A stretch of DNA of 27,758 nt. Origin: a virus. The notes below the pieces were generated by a model. It did no database searches, was not told the DNA's origin, and saw nothing but the letters and a program-made list of their open reading frames with translations. Numbering within the stretch: the stretch's first letter is position 1; each line of letters opens with the position of its first letter. The stretch is taken from IMG/VR virus record IMGVR_UViG_3300031772_000222, positions 1-27,758 of that record. One strand, written 5' to 3'. Below, in pieces: positions 4,504-27,758 of the stretch. The position numbers were made by a program, and so were the translations under genes.

Positions 4504-5187
4504 ATGGAACAGAAAATATGGTCACTTTATAGAATTACAAATAAAATTAATCAAAAAGTTTACATCGGTCAAGCCGAAAACTATGAACATCGTTGGGCGG
4601 ATCATAGGCGAGCTGTGAGAAATAATAGGCCGACTCAGACAATTCATTATGCTCTAATTAAATATGGATTAGAGCATTTTGATTTTGAAATCATTGCTTC
4701 TTGTAAAACTCAAGATGACGCTAACTGTATTGAAACACAATTGGTTACACAGTATGATAGTTTTATTAAAAATGGCAAAGGATATAATGCAACTTTAGGT
4801 GGCATGAACGCCCCTAAGACTGAGGAATGGAAACGTAAAGTTTCAGAAAAGTTGATGGGACATGAAGTATCGCAAGAAACTCGTGATAAGGTTTCCAAAG
4901 GTAATACTGGCAAAATACGTTCCGAAGATTTTAAGAATGATGTAAGTAATTTTCATAAAGGAAAATTGGTTTCCGAAGAGACTAGGCAAAAACTATCAGA
5001 TATAAATAAAGGTAATACTAATTTCAAGGGCAAGTATCATTCTGAGGAATCTAAGCAAAAAACATCTAAAGCTAATAAGGGCAGAAAACCATCTAAGTTA
5101 GCTATACAAAAGGCCCAAGAAGCTTTTACTGGTAAAACTTGGAAAGTTATAGATGGCAAGCGTGTTTGGATAGAAAAACCTAATTAA
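4504..5187 (+). CDS. GIY-YIG homing endonuclease with NUMOD3 repeats
   Basis: This 227-residue protein is a selfish DNA-cutting enzyme that would copy its own gene into related phages lacking it. The N-terminal GIY-YIG domain (1-90) has LYRITN (8-13), VYIG (19-22), the likely catalytic Arg30 in EHRWADH and Glu77 in CIETQL. After it come at least three NUMOD3-type DNA-binding repeats of the form S-x-E-x-(R/K)-x-K-(L/V/T)-S (about 118-195). The ribosome-binding site is TTGGAGG. The gene sits between the replication and virion modules, next to a terminator, a typical site for free-standing homing endonucleases. It is not inside an intron as far as can be seen. Confidence 0.9.
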   Translation: MEQKIWSLYRITNKINQKVYIGQAENYEHRWADHRRAVRNNRPTQTIHYALIKYGLEHFDFEIIASCKTQDDANCIETQLVTQYDSFIKNGKGYNATLGGMNAPKTEEWKRKVSEKLMGHEVSQETRDKVSKGNTGKIRSEDFKNDVSNFHKGKLVSEETRQKLSDINKGNTNFKGKYHSEESKQKTSKANKGRKPSKLAIQKAQEAFTGKTWKVIDGKRVWIEKPN

Positions 5188-12097: not shown

Positions 12098-13708
12098 ATG
12101 AAACTCAAAGAATTGCTTCAACAAATGCAGGGAATACAGGAGAAGTTAGGCACTTCTGCGCCTTATATTTGTGGAGGAACTCCAAGAGATAGGCTGATGA
12201 AACGCATAGATAATATCTCAGATTTAGATATTACCACTGGCGATAAAACTGTGCAATACCTGGCTCAGGAATTTGGCGGCGAGCTAGCTAAGAAATACAA
12301 TGTAACTCGTCGTAGCCACGAAGATGGTCATAGCTCTATTTATATTGGTAATTTTAAGATGGACTTTTCTTCCAATTTTAATGTTCCAAATATTGACAGC
12401 TTACTGAATGCAAAAGGAATTAAGACTCCAACTGAAATGCAAAAAGAAATGTTCAGTAGAGATTTCACTTGCAATGCATTGTTGTTATCTATAGACTTAA
12501 AGAACTTAGTTGATCCAACAGGAAATGGATTTAATGATATTAAAGATAAAGTAATTAGAACCTGCTTATCTCCTGAAATAACTCTTACAACAAATAAGAA
12601 TAGAGTTATTAGAGCAATATATTTGGCATCTAAATTAGATTTTGATATTGATCCTAAAATTATAGAGTTCGTACAAAAAAATCCACAATCAGTTAAAATT
12701 TCCAGTGAAAAAACATTGGCAGAAAAACTGAATGAAGCATTTAATAGAGATGCTGATAAGGCGGCTTATTATATTACCAAAATGGGATTATGGAAAGATA
12801 TTCCTATTACAGAGGTAGCAAGGCCATATTATATGAAGAGCCTTCAGCAATCAACTAAAGTAGGTTATTTTCAGGGTGGTGGTGGCGTTAACGAACCAAC
12901 TCCAAAGAAAAAAAAGTATAAGTCAGAGCCAGCGCTTGTGGTTCAGCCTCGCTTCAAGGAACCATTTTATCGCAACTACGATTTGTATGATGTTCCTGGA
13001 TTCGATCACATTGGCCCCGGTGCCGGTTATCACTCGATGCAAAAGTATAAAAGCGTCTCGGAATTTTTAGATGCTAAACGAAAAAAAATGAAGGATAAGT
13101 ATAAGGCCGATGACTCTTGGAAACAAGATGACGGCAAAATTACTAAAAAGAATCCATCTGTCAAAGCTCGTACCGTTATTTTAGAAAGAATTATCAAGAT
13201 GGCTGGCCCTAATTATGATTTAGGAAAAGGCCTATATGATAATATGGATAAATATGATAGTGTAAAAGATTTTAGAGAAAGCTCTCCGCACGGCCAAGCG
13301 GCCCTAATGCATAAAGATATCAATCATATTGATTTTCCATTAGATAAATATACTGATCCTGCTATAACTGCACCTGAACCTACTGATGAAGATGGTGGTA
13401 ATCCAGTAGGTGAGGCCAATTTGATGGGAGGATATTTAGATGAATATCTACCAAAGGATGATGCTGAAGATAAACCTCCAACAGCCCTTGATTTTGGAAG
13501 AGATTATACTGAAGGTGAGACAAGAGAGGCTCCAAAAAATATGGAGCATATTGAGAAACTTTTAGATAAGTACTTATCTCATGGCACTTTTGGCCTACCA
13601 GATGGTGTAGATTTGCCAGATGAAGAATTAAAAGATCCAAATCCTAATCCATTTTATGGTACTACTGATGTAGGAATCACTAGTTATGAAGATAAATGGA
13701 ACATATAA
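12098..13708 (+). CDS. CCA-adding/poly(A)-polymerase-like nucleotidyltransferase fused to a novel tail
   Basis: Residues 1-240 resemble a class II tRNA nucleotidyltransferase / poly(A) polymerase head. There is a GG motif with Arg-Asp (ICGGTPRDRLM, 24-34), the metal-binding pair Asp42/Asp44 in SDLDITT, a likely third carboxylate Asp89 in KMDFSS, RDFTCNALL (121-129), and a neck motif NKNRVIRAIYLASKLDFDI (167-184). Such enzymes add CCA or other nucleotides to RNA 3' ends. Residues 241-536 are not part of the family. They start with GYFQGGGGVNEPTP (256-269), shared with the protease/scaffold-like gene at the right edge, and hold short repeats such as MxKYxSVxxF and LDxY. The acidic tail is Pro/Asp-rich. 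The ribosome-binding site is weak. Location among virion genes is unusual for this enzyme. Confidence 0.78.
   Translation: MKLKELLQQMQGIQEKLGTSAPYICGGTPRDRLMKRIDNISDLDITTGDKTVQYLAQEFGGELAKKYNVTRRSHEDGHSSIYIGNFKMDFSSNFNVPNIDSLLNAKGIKTPTEMQKEMFSRDFTCNALLLSIDLKNLVDPTGNGFNDIKDKVIRTCLSPEITLTTNKNRVIRAIYLASKLDFDIDPKIIEFVQKNPQSVKISSEKTLAEKLNEAFNRDADKAAYYITKMGLWKDIPITEVARPYYMKSLQQSTKVGYFQGGGGVNEPTPKKKKYKSEPALVVQPRFKEPFYRNYDLYDVPGFDHIGPGAGYHSMQKYKSVSEFLDAKRKKMKDKYKADDSWKQDDGKITKKNPSVKARTVILERIIKMAGPNYDLGKGLYDNMDKYDSVKDFRESSPHGQAALMHKDINHIDFPLDKYTDPAITAPEPTDEDGGNPVGEANLMGGYLDEYLPKDDAEDKPPTALDFGRDYTEGETREAPKNMEHIEKLLDKYLSHGTFGLPDGVDLPDEELKDPNPNPFYGTTDVGITSYEDKWNI
12863..13033 (+). repeat. Third, diverged copy of the GGGVNEPTP module
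   Basis: This segment encodes residues 256-312 of the nucleotidyltransferase fusion. It begins GYFQGGGGVNEPTP, keeps a KY pair six residues later, and ends FDHIGPGAGYH. The two copies at 26857-27366 match in the same order: GGVNEPTP, KY, then F-x-x-V-G-P-V-D-G-x-H. The middle is diverged. The bases around VNEPTP are also nearly the same in all three copies. Confidence 0.7.
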
Positions 13709-14708: not shown

Positions 14709-15350
14709 ATGAGTAGAAACAATAGAAACTTGCCCGTAATTTCGAGGCAATCTGACGAGTCAATTAGTGAAGATCACTGGCTAAAACAATTCCAAAAGAG
14801 CTTATTAAAGGACGCTGTGCAACCAAAAGCTCAAGAGTCTTTATTTGATCAGATCAATACCATTATGAATGGAAAGTCCAAATATACTTCCGTTGATTCT
14901 GCCGTTAAAGACATGCAGGAACGAAGCGGTTTGACTGCATATCTAAATAAAATTAGTGAAACTGCCGCAGAGAAGCCCTCGGCCAAAAAAGTAGTTGCTT
15001 CGGATAATCAAGAAGCTATTGATAAGAAAGTTCCAATGGTATTTAGGAAACATCCAGCAATTAAAACAACTTTAGAAAACTATATAAAAAGTACTAGAGG
15101 CAATTTACCTGTTCCTGCTATTATTGATAAGCTAAGATCCATTCATCAAAATGATGTATCTGATGCACAAGACTGGGAAGATCCAAAATTACTTATAGAA
15201 GTTAGCGGGCAAAACTTAAAAGAGAAAAGTAATAATCCAGATAACTTTACCAACTATAATCACTTGGGTAATCATGATAGTGATTCTGCAGGAGACATTG
15301 ACGCATCAAATACTGATGCCTTCTTATCATTAACTCCAGCTAAGATATAA
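14709..15350 (+). CDS. Unrecognised protein upstream of the large terminase
   Basis: This 213-residue protein has no family that I recognise. It is hydrophilic and mostly helical up to about residue 150 (DHWLKQFQKSLLKDAVQPKA; IDKLRSIHQNDVSDAQDWED). Its Asn/Asp/Ser-rich tail (165-213) looks disordered. It starts two bases after the previous stop. Its last 11 bases overlap the 3' end of the antisense HNH gene, which has inserted between it and the terminase. A role in head or packaging is suggested only by position. Confidence 0.55.
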   Translation: MSRNNRNLPVISRQSDESISEDHWLKQFQKSLLKDAVQPKAQESLFDQINTIMNGKSKYTSVDSAVKDMQERSGLTAYLNKISETAAEKPSAKKVVASDNQEAIDKKVPMVFRKHPAIKTTLENYIKSTRGNLPVPAIIDKLRSIHQNDVSDAQDWEDPKLLIEVSGQNLKEKSNNPDNFTNYNHLGNHDSDSAGDIDASNTDAFLSLTPAKI

Positions 15351-15834
15351 TCTTTTTTGGACGAGTAGGGTAAACTATAATTTCTGGCTTATTATGTGGA
15401 CAATATCCAAAAAATCCTTTTGAGCAATTACAGTTATAGCAAAGTAATTGATATTCCTCTTTAGGAAAATTATTTTTAATTAACCAGCGGTAAAGTTTGC
15501 CGCCCGTCTTTTTACCATTTTGTCTACGATCTTCAGCGCCATTATTATTAATATGATCTATTGTGAGAAATTCTAGAGCAACTTCGCCACAACAAGAGCA
15601 TTTGCCGCCATACCCCTCTATTACTTTTATTTTAACAGATAGATCATAAATACGCTGTTGCTCCCTAATGAGTTCTTTCCTATCAATATATTTTTTTTGA
15701 GAACGATGTTTTTCACATGATTTACATAGGTATTTTCCGTGTTCAAAACTGTATTTATTTGTATTATTGGCATCCAAATCAATTAAACAATCTTTACAAA
15801 TCTTATTTTCGGCTTTTTTATTTGTGTTTTTCAT
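15340..15834 (-). CDS. Antisense HNH homing endonuclease
   Basis: This 164-residue protein is the only complete gene on the minus strand. It has an N-terminal four-Cys site (Cys13, Cys16, Cys37, Cys40), then an HNH nuclease domain (75-145): Cys79/Cys82, the catalytic-type DHINNNG (93-99) and LLCYNCNCSKG (130-140) with Cys132/Cys135. This is the layout of small phage HNH endonucleases that often lie beside terminase genes. It would spread its own gene by cutting phage DNA that lacks it. Its own promoter-like GGATATATT lies 13 bases upstream. It converges on the preceding gene with an 11-base overlap, so it has squeezed in with no spare sequence. Confidence 0.88.
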   Translation of the reverse strand: MKNTNKKAENKICKDCLIDLDANNTNKYSFEHGKYLCKSCEKHRSQKKYIDRKELIREQQRIYDLSVKIKVIEGYGGKCSCCGEVALEFLTIDHINNNGAEDRRQNGKKTGGKLYRWLIKNNFPKEEYQLLCYNCNCSKGFFGYCPHNKPEIIVYPTRPKKIIS

Positions 15835-24877: not shown

Positions 24878-25471
24878 ATGCGTAATTGTACCATATATAA
24901 AATAACCAATTTTGCTAATGAAAAAGTATATGTTGGACAAACTTGGTGCTCAATTACTAAAAGATTTAATGAGCATAAGAAGAGTGATAGTAATAAAAAA
25001 TTATTTTATGCTATGAATAAGTATGGTAGAGATAATTTTTTAATTCAGATGTTATCAACTACTATTACGCAAGAAGATGCTGATTATTGGGAAATTTTTT
25101 ATATTACTGAATATAATAGTATAAATAATGGTTATAATATTCGAGAAGGCGGCTCTCGCGGAAAGCAATCTGAAGAGACTAAAATAAAAATATCAGTGGC
25201 GCATATTGGAAAAATGCACTCAATACATACTAAAGAAAAAATGTCCAAATCACGAATAGGATTAAATCCATCTATTGAAACTCGTATAAAAATGTCTAAA
25301 TCAAAATTAGGTGAAAATCATCCGAAATCTAAATTAACTTGGGATATAGTTGGACATATAAGAGAAGATTATAATACTGGGTTAGTTTCATATAGAGAAT
25401 TAGCCGCAAAATATGATACGGATTATGGAACAGTTGGCAAAATTATCAATAATAAGATATGGAAATTATAA
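24878..25471 (+). CDS. GIY-YIG homing endonuclease with NUMOD3 and HTH-like tail
   Basis: This 197-residue selfish endonuclease has a GIY-YIG domain (1-90) with IYKITN (6-11), VYVG (17-20), the likely catalytic Arg29 (TKRFNEH) and Glu72 (WEIFYI). NUMOD3-type repeats follow (98-145: SEETKIKISVAHIGK; TKEKMSKSRIGL; IETRIKMSKSKLG). A helix-turn-helix-like end (154-195) has ELAAKYDTDYGTVGKIINNK. It differs from the first GIY-YIG protein in its tail, so they are not recent copies. The ribosome-binding site is poor. Its stop overlaps the next ATG (TAATG), so the element inserted exactly at that gene's start. Confidence 0.9.
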   Translation: MRNCTIYKITNFANEKVYVGQTWCSITKRFNEHKKSDSNKKLFYAMNKYGRDNFLIQMLSTTITQEDADYWEIFYITEYNSINNGYNIREGGSRGKQSEETKIKISVAHIGKMHSIHTKEKMSKSRIGLNPSIETRIKMSKSKLGENHPKSKLTWDIVGHIREDYNTGLVSYRELAAKYDTDYGTVGKIINNKIWKL

Positions 25472-25632: not shown

Positions 25633-27758
25633 ATGTCATTTGTTAAACTAGGTGAACTAATTGAAATTAACAGAGTGGAGAATACGGAATCGTGTCTTCC
25701 AGCTGTTAGTGCTGAGATTTTAGAGAACTTTAGAAAATTTGCAACTAACCTGAAGAAGGTCGCTCCAAAAGCTGAAGATTTTTTGTATTTTTCCGCCGTA
25801 ATGATGCACGCAGCAGAAGCTGCTGGCCTTAACGATGACGGAACAACAAAATTAACTATTAAAGGTGAACCACTTCAAGTGGGTTGGGATAAACGTGGCG
25901 GAACATGGCGTTGGACCAGCAATGATTCGAGCGTTAAGCCTTATAAGAATTCTAATGGCGATATCTTCCCCGAAGAAGAACTAGTCAAAGCATATAGAAA
26001 ATGGGTAGGAAAGCCTCTTTGCATCGATCATAAGTCAAGCTCGGTAGATCATGTAAGAGGCTTTATTGTTGATACTCATTATGATCGTGTTCATAGAAGA
26101 GTTATTGCATTATGCGCTTTAGATAAAGCTGGCTATCCTCAATTAGCGCGTCAAGTATCAACTGGAGTTTCTAACTGCGTATCAATGGGTACGGCAGTAG
26201 GAAAAGCAATTTGTACTGATTGTGCAACTGTCGCTCGCACGGAACAAGATTTCTGCGACCACATGAGACGCAAGAGTGGCTACGGTGAAATTAACGTTGA
26301 TCTAAATCCATTAGAGTTATCTATTGTTGTTAATGGTGCCGATCCAAAAGCTAATATTAAACATATTATTGCAGCAGCTAATACATTAAATGCTTATGTT
26401 GAAACTAAACAAAATGAATTAAGCAAATTCGCAGAAAGTTTTACTGCTAATATTAATTTTACTCAGGGCGCCTCATCTGATAGCTCCGCTGTAACTAATG
26501 TTACTGTAAATTCCAAAGATTTAGAGACATTCCGCAAGGATGTTGATAAAGCAATTGCAGATTTCCAGAACCTGCAATCTTCATTAGCAAATGAAGAAAA
26601 TATGCCAGAACATGGTAATGATATGGCATCTGATCAATTGACGGAAACTCCGTCTGCTGATTCTGGATTGGCTCCACCACATGCAAGATATGCTTCTGCT
26701 GAGGTAGGAGTGGACCTTATCGCTGAACTTCAAGAGGTCACAAAGACCATCGAAACCAAGTTGAGCCAAATGAAACAAAGCTTGGATAAGTTAGCAAACA
26801 CTTCTACTATAAACACACAAGAGGAAAATATGTCAGGTACAAATAATATCAAACAAGGTTACTACCAAGGTGCAGGCGGCGTCAATGAACCAACCCCAGG
26901 CCAAGTAAAGTATCCAAAAGATCCTCTAAATGAGCAACTTCGTGAAAAAGAAGATAGACAAATGCAAGGTCAATCTCCATTCCCAAGTGTAGGGCCAGTT
27001 GATGGCATGCACCCAAGCCCAGATTCTGCGGAGCAATCCAATGAACTTGAGCGCAAGAAAATGCTTGCCCGTGCAGAGTCAGAAGAGCGCGCGACTCGCC
27101 GTCAAGCGATCGTTAACCTTGCAAAGTCAGCTCTTGAAAATAGAACTGCATACTTCCTAGGTGGCGGGGGCGTTAATGAGCCAACCCCAGGTAAAGTAAA
27201 GTACCCAGCAGACAAGCTTAATGAACAACTTCGTGATCGTGAAGATAAGCATATGACCGGACAAAAGCCTTTCCCAGGCGTTGGTCCAGTTGATGGCCTT
27301 CATCCATCTCCAAGCTCCGCAGATGTTTCCGACGAATTAAAGCGTAAGGAAATGCTACGTAGAGCTGGCCTTAGAGCAAAGTTTGTTAGAGTATCTAATG
27401 ATAATGGCACTGCTGATTTGGGAAACAGTGCATGGGAAGTTTATAATGGCGACAAGCTTATCTTAACTGCATCAGTAAATGAATTATCTGGTGGTCGTTC
27501 TGAAGTATTACATGATAGTATCGCAACTAAAGAGTTTGGAACCAAATTACTTGAAAAAGTAAAAGCACAAGGTGCTGATAAAATTCGTGCTCTTGTAAAG
27601 GGTGCTCAAGCAGCCCCTCCACCTCCTCCAGTAGATTCTTCTGCTCCTCCAGCTATGGAAGCACCTCCAGTAGATGCTCCTCCAGCTGAAGATGCGGGTA
27701 AATCTGGTGATCAGAAGGAATCAGCAGTTGAATTAGCCGAGAAGGCAAGAGACATTGG
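25633..27758 (+). CDS. Prohead-protease-like gene with repeat/scaffold region (3' end outside window)
   Basis: The frame is open for 708 residues to the window edge. Residues about 105-240 resemble a prohead maturation protease of the herpesvirus-assemblin-like fold: WVGKPLCIDHKSS with likely catalytic His133, a strand pair (GFIVDTHYDRVHRRVIALCA), and GVSNCVSMG with likely catalytic Ser184. Directly after is a zinc-like insert, Cys194, Cys197, Cys208, His210. Residues 240-400 are helical. Two tandem GGGVNEPTP repeats lie at 409-578, then a domain (580-660) with WEVYNGDKLILTASVNEL, and a polyproline stretch (661-685). The ribosome-binding site is a run of Gs before ATG 25633. The protease would mature head proteins; the rest could be scaffold. 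A second start is at 26830. Confidence 0.7.
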   Translation, partial: MSFVKLGELIEINRVENTESCLPAVSAEILENFRKFATNLKKVAPKAEDFLYFSAVMMHAAEAAGLNDDGTTKLTIKGEPLQVGWDKRGGTWRWTSNDSSVKPYKNSNGDIFPEEELVKAYRKWVGKPLCIDHKSSSVDHVRGFIVDTHYDRVHRRVIALCALDKAGYPQLARQVSTGVSNCVSMGTAVGKAICTDCATVARTEQDFCDHMRRKSGYGEINVDLNPLELSIVVNGADPKANIKHIIAAANTLNAYVETKQNELSKFAESFTANINFTQGASSDSSAVTNVTVNSKDLETFRKDVDKAIADFQNLQSSLANEENMPEHGNDMASDQLTETPSADSGLAPPHARYASAEVGVDLIAELQEVTKTIETKLSQMKQSLDKLANTSTINTQEENMSGTNNIKQGYYQGAGGVNEPTPGQVKYPKDPLNEQLREKEDRQMQGQSPFPSVGPVDGMHPSPDSAEQSNELERKKMLARAESEERATRRQAIVNLAKSALENRTAYFLGGGGVNEPTPGKVKYPADKLNEQLRDREDKHMTGQKPFPGVGPVDGLHPSPSSADVSDELKRKEMLRRAGLRAKFVRVSNDNGTADLGNSAWEVYNGDKLILTASVNELSGGRSEVLHDSIATKEFGTKLLEKVKAQGADKIRALVKGAQAAPPPPPVDSSAPPAMEAPPVDAPPAEDAGKSGDQKESAVELAEKARDI
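26821..27758 (+). CDS. Possible nested scaffold product from an internal start at 26830 (3' end outside window)
   Basis: Within the protease-like gene, GAGG (26821-26824) stands five bases before an in-frame ATG at 26830. This codon is residue 400 of the long product, and the protein from there begins MSGTNNIKQGYYQGAGGVNE. It would contain only the tandem repeats, the following domain and the Pro-rich tail, without the protease. The same arrangement is established in lambda, where scaffold Nu3 starts inside protease gene C. Whether this site is used is unknown. Confidence 0.5.
26857..27366 (+). repeat. Two tandem copies of the GGGVNEPTP module
   Basis: Copy 1 covers residues 409-481 (26857-27075) and copy 2 residues 507-578 (27151-27366), a period of 98 residues. 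Both keep GGVNEPTPG, KVKYP/QVKYP, then N-E-Q-L-R, E-D-(R/K), M-x-G-Q-x-P-F-P, V-G-P-V-D-G-x-H-P-S-P, and end K-(K/E)-M-L-x-R-A. The 25 residues between them are helical. A third, diverged copy lies in the nucleotidyltransferase gene. Confidence 0.85.

Follow-up and report, generated by a model that had tools for sequence, protein, structure and literature searches.

Phage lambda produces a scaffold isoform, Nu3, from an in-frame internal start with a ribosome-binding site that lies within the head protease gene, C. The T4 capsid-targeting sequence (CTS) is the precedent for a short peptide tag of the kind considered here (PMC5694885, PMC9958956). According to the passages cited from PMC5694885, the N-terminal propeptides of SPN3US and phiKZ are thought to target inner head proteins and are removed by a protease.

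The window, by which we mean the whole stretch of 27,758 nucleotides analysed (27.8 kb), is part of a phage head and packaging cluster with terminase, portal and head protease genes (PHROGs, Pfam). Its relatives lie on contigs of up to ~480 kb, and its source group is uncultured giant (jumbo) phages. The order of the head-cluster genes (terminase, portal, other head genes) is constant across the close relatives examined. By eye, GIY-YIG-like and HNH-like ORFs occur in or near the head genes of the window (4504-5187, 24878-25471 and, on the minus strand, 15340-15834); these are likely homing endonucleases. One relative, L196 (JAIXLO010000160.1), lies on a contig of 383 kb that was binned with a Chitinophagales MAG, which hints weakly at the host.

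The shared motif and its carriers

The repeat reported in the preliminary description is real. The window encodes GYFQGGGGVNEPTP at 12863-12904 (+), residues 256-269 of a 536-aa ORF (12098-13708), and carries two further copies in the protease-scaffold ORF open from 25633, namely GYYQGAGGVNEPTPG at 26857-26901 and AYFLGGGGVNEPTPG at 27148-27192. An 86-aa query from the enzyme ORF matches both scaffold-ORF copies (E 7e-9 and 2e-8). The features discussed below are the following, where NTase is nucleotidyltransferase and SD is Shine-Dalgarno.

12098..12847 (+): short NTase domain, class II PolyA_pol/CCA-type head and neck, ~250 aa; separate gene in relatives
12848..12862 (+): fusion junction, the site of the NTase stop and the overlapping tail start in 23 split loci
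12863..12919 (+): third copy of the tag motif, GYFQGGGGVNEPTPKKKKY; mean pairwise identity of 95% across nine fused rows; disordered in the model
12920..13708 (+): remaining part of the tail protein, for the most part disordered by prediction; encoded separately in relatives
13013..13066 (+): tail element GPGAGYHSMQKYKSVSEF, which outgroup tails without the tag also conserve
13214..13273 (+): second tail element, YDLGKGLYDNMDKYDSVKDF
25633..27756 (+), open at the window end: head maturation protease-scaffold ORF (phrog_18299 head maturation protease, 1.2e-14)
26821..26832 (+): internal start predicted for the nested scaffold, ribosome-binding site plus ATG (GAGGAAAATATG), in an SD-like context
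26857..26901 (+): copy 1 of the tag motif, GYYQGAGGVNEPTPG, starting at residue 10 of the predicted nested scaffold
27148..27192 (+): copy 2 of the tag motif, AYFLGGGGVNEPTPG, at an internal position 97 residues C-terminal to copy 1

The 171-base span first given to the module (12863-13033) was overstated. The part common to the two protein families comprises ~19 residues, [AG]Y[FYW]QGGGGVNEPTPGxxKY; in short form the tag reads about AYFQGGGGVNEPTPG. In the sequence 3' of the motif, the two families match no better than shuffled columns, and a longer shared domain was rejected for this reason. The variant GTEEPTP replaces GGGGVNEPTP in some scaffold copies and in two tails, and the residue preceding the first conserved Gly varies among Q, L, N, M and H. 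AlphaFold predicts the motif to be disordered in both proteins, with a poor model in the case of the scaffold. The motif region gave no significant match to solved structures, and no literature on VNEPTP was found.

A pattern scan of viral contigs returned more than 100 stretches with the motif. In the stretches read, it belongs either to the protease-scaffold ORF (one or two copies) or to the tail protein, the exception being one chance-like repeat family (L068, L089, L147). When eleven genomes or large contigs (127-481 kb) were searched with a profile, the picture was the same: two scaffold copies in each of the eleven, one tail-protein copy in most, and no other protein above noise. The tail-protein copy is confined to the tagged branch. 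The search across proteins of related phages that had been suggested at the outset therefore returns only the protease-scaffold and the tail protein, in genomes and contigs of up to ~480 kb. Among 50,697 cultured phage records, the motif occurs in none.

The earlier statement that the copies are near-identical in bases holds for the peptide and not for the third codon positions, which match at 3.0 of 8 shared codons within genomes and at 2.98 of 8 between genomes (permutation p 0.58). Since the peptide is conserved although sharing a genome brings the third positions no closer, selection acts on the peptide. Mean pairwise identity in the nine fused rows is 95% for the motif, 36% for the preceding linker (12848..12862), 71% for the NTase and 49% for the far tail; in split rows the motif reaches 94%. 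The tail surrounding the motif lies at 49-68%. The motif peptide is thus conserved in its own right, even when it is internal. It is very improbable that the similarity arose without function through recombination or gene conversion between the two genes, or that it reflects an RNA element at the start codon. The motif probably did spread from the scaffold to the tail gene, but it is the most conserved stretch of the tail whether fused or split, and the third positions led us to reject recent recombination or an RNA element as the source. The preliminary description had allowed for local recombination, with the similarity vanishing in relatives; the motif is instead kept there.

The predicted nested scaffold

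In most relatives the protease-scaffold ORF is 1120-1280 aa long. A Met is found within 25 residues upstream of copy 1 in 66 of 66 distinct contexts, and the usual codons up to it are CAA GAG GAA AAT ATG. An SD-like sequence accompanies 70 of 76 copy-1 contexts, compared with 99 of 2106 (4.7%) other in-frame ATGs of these ORFs, and the first Glu codon is GAG in 65 of 66 contexts, compared with 77 of 583 (13%) other Glu-Glu pairs; the contexts are related sequences whose counts are not independent, but each ORF supplies its own control. Copy 2 lacks this start pattern (9/54). Copy 1 begins ~10 residues past the internal ATG, at the predicted N-terminus of the nested scaffold. There is strong sequence evidence that a nested scaffold starts inside the protease gene in the manner of lambda C/Nu3. 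One peptide would then open two proteins, the predicted nested scaffold and the tail, and it recurs once inside the scaffold.

The structure model of the scaffold has a mean pLDDT of 53 (low confidence), too poor to tell whether the motif docks on the protease. We also considered a generic [LIVMF]xKxA cleavage motif but dropped it, since its enrichment is clear in the protease-scaffold alone and weak in other proteins. By eye, the protease-scaffold ORF of L055 (3-3008, minus strand) is interrupted in frame after KPYKN by an intein-like insert that starts with Cys and ends in HNC.

The tail protein and the short nucleotidyltransferase

In 23 loci the NTase is only ~250-259 aa long, and the tail gene, in the +1 frame, begins inside it or at its end; most of these loci have an SD-like sequence, with the motif 4-7 residues past the tail start codon. 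The motif lies at residues ~5-20 of the separate tail proteins in about 20 related jumbo-phage loci. Three split-locus tails (L014, L015, L018) do not have it, and neither do the outgroup tails (L201-L203). The motif is therefore not essential to the tail protein. The tails that do not carry it start just downstream of the motif position.

In the window and its nearest relatives, the NTase and the tail form one reading frame. The NTase tree places the window's fused clade as nine rows (support 99/95), with two further fusions (L146, L077) elsewhere, which makes at least three changes; fusion and separation have switched more than once. The start codon beside the motif is lost in the window, L007 and L009, and an in-frame ATG is retained beside it in L005, L006, L008 and L010. 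Relatives have the tail as a separate tagged gene, which the window's clade has fused to the NTase; the tag is therefore the tail protein's and not the enzyme's, and only the fusion makes it look otherwise. In the outgroups G012, G013 and G017 the NTase is accompanied by untagged tail sequence, to which it is fused in G012, partly fused in G013 and unjoined in G017, and so the tag on the tail was probably a later gain.

These results modify the first assignment of the module as a T4-like targeting tag of the NTase. Peptide-level selection, the restriction to the protease-scaffold and one other head-cluster protein, and the N-terminal position in the separate tail and, by prediction, in the nested scaffold are in keeping with a targeting tag. 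The assignment to the NTase, on the other hand, is not supported, as most relatives have a separate, untagged enzyme and carry the tag on the downstream gene.

The arrangement of the copies also bears on the main rival reading, that the motif is the recognition and cut site of the head maturation protease, cleaved for example at YFQ/G. A cut there would free the scaffold from the protease, trim the N-terminus of the tail and, where the two are fused, split the enzyme from the tail. The motif is short, very conserved and disordered, and its copies lie at protein-protein junctions (protease/scaffold and NTase/tail). Repeated fusions exactly at the motif would be harmless if it were cleaved, which would explain their recurrence there, and the motif-less tails begin just downstream of it. 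However, the conserved stretch of ~19 residues exceeds the usual length of a cleavage site, the position ahead of the first conserved Gly is variable, and GTEEP replaces the middle in some copies. In addition, the internal start would already part the scaffold from the protease. We regard cleavage at the motif, and these consequences of it, as possible but rather unlikely, although sequence cannot separate a protease site from an assembly tag.

The gene directly after the scaffold starts with M-x2-3-SVSDFVA (L088:8667-9452, L145:5556-6473 and others), an N-terminus that resembles the tail element YKSVSDF (13049-13066 of the window). The common KSVSDF spans six residues and may be a helix start. 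In L062 (8688-11063, plus strand), a DnaJ-domain protein, just under the Pfam cut-off, is in frame between the NTase and the tail.

Residues 1-250 of the window's fusion form a head domain of the poly A polymerase/CCA type (Pfam PF01743, 2.4e-13), modelled by AlphaFold with a pLDDT of ~93 and matched by Foldseek to class II CCA-adding enzymes (4e-12). The catalytic GG-x2-RD and DxD and the sequence RDFTCN are invariant in 18 NTase rows. Motif D reads [TS]NxNR in most of the 18 rows and not EDxxR, with Asn168 and Arg169 invariant. The separate NTase genes are 250-259 aa long, without the body and tail domains for tRNA binding of the ~370-420 aa type. The initial label "CCA-adding-like enzyme" is thus apt for the head domain with its GG-x2-RD and DxD, but does not extend to EDxxR or the tRNA-binding half. 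Since five genomes (G003, G011, G014, G015, G016) also encode a canonical 416-466-aa CCA enzyme, with EDGLR in motif D as read in four of the five, the short, divergent NTase probably does not serve as the usual CCA enzyme of the phage. It holds the same position among the head genes in all close relatives examined and adjoins the untagged tail in the outgroups. Why it is retained among the head genes is puzzling in itself.

In a distant relative, a 1407-aa ORF (L046:1168-5388, plus strand) joins an NTase+HD enzyme, a weakly Acb1-like 2'-5' RNA ligase-like domain and others. The linker [LI]SKRA occurs seven times in it, once at the extreme C-terminus, and twice more in the preceding ORF; the 1407-aa ORF looks like a polyprotein with processing or sorting sites.

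Proposed function and comparison with known systems

We propose, with evenly balanced confidence, that the motif is a linear head-assembly or targeting tag that works like the T4 capsid-targeting sequence. A disordered, conserved and mostly N-terminal peptide common to the scaffold and one head-cluster protein fits such a tag. As part of the scaffold system, it would open the nested scaffold made from the internal start in the protease gene and occur a second time inside it. In one branch of these jumbo phages, it also stands at the N-terminus of the tail, a second head-cluster protein, translated right after the short NTase and overlapping with it. The tag may let the tail bind the scaffold's own partner, whether the scaffold itself, the shell or the portal, and the tail would in this way become part of the prohead core, like the internal proteins of T4. 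With the in-frame fusion of the window's clade, the enzyme would be carried along into the head or cut off later. It is doubtful, though conceivable, that the RNA NTase is loaded into the head through the scaffold-shared tag and injected into the host, the window's clade having fixed this loading by fusion.

It is also conceivable, but improbable, that the tail is an assembly helper, which binds the scaffold via the tag and leaves with it, so that tail and enzyme would be absent from the finished virion and the enzyme would act on RNA in the cell late in infection. A tag in common with a transient scaffold, the head-cluster location and the overlapping genes, rather than a fusion, in most relatives are all consistent with this role. 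Nothing specific speaks against it, and sequence does not part it from the head-assembly tag that we prefer.

For a wide range of uncultured giant phages, the motif is a candidate head-assembly tag that is defined by its sequence and can be tested. It also draws attention to a second RNA nucleotidyltransferase, an unusual one that these phages retain among their head genes. Should the proposed role hold, the tag would identify the proteins that go into the capsid, and it could serve to load foreign proteins into very large heads.

Like the T4 CTS of the internal proteins IPII and IPIII, the motif is a short segment, and its carriers would go into the prohead core together with the scaffold. 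Its position is N-terminal in some cases only: it lies at residues ~5-20 in separate tails and ~10 past the predicted nested start, and is internal in the window's fusion and in copy 2. Unlike the T4 CTS, it is longer, is also found in the scaffold itself and persists internally. We claim no sequence relation between the two and do not file the motif as a member of the T4 CTS family. The SPN3US and phiKZ propeptides are likewise N-terminal segments with presumed head targeting; most of them, however, are 79-161 residues or longer (one is of 20), they belong to a different phage group, and the cited passages report no shared motif of this kind (PMC5694885).

The short NTase resembles bacterial class II CCA-adding enzymes and poly(A) polymerases in its head and neck fold, GG-x2-RD, DxD and RDFTxN, and differs from the class II CCA-adding enzyme in its length of ~250 aa without body and tail, in having [TS]NxNR for EDxxR and in its place in a head gene cluster. 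As in lambda C/Nu3, an in-frame internal start with a ribosome-binding site is predicted in the protease gene; unlike in lambda, the nested part would be much larger (about 750-850 aa) and would carry two copies of the tag.
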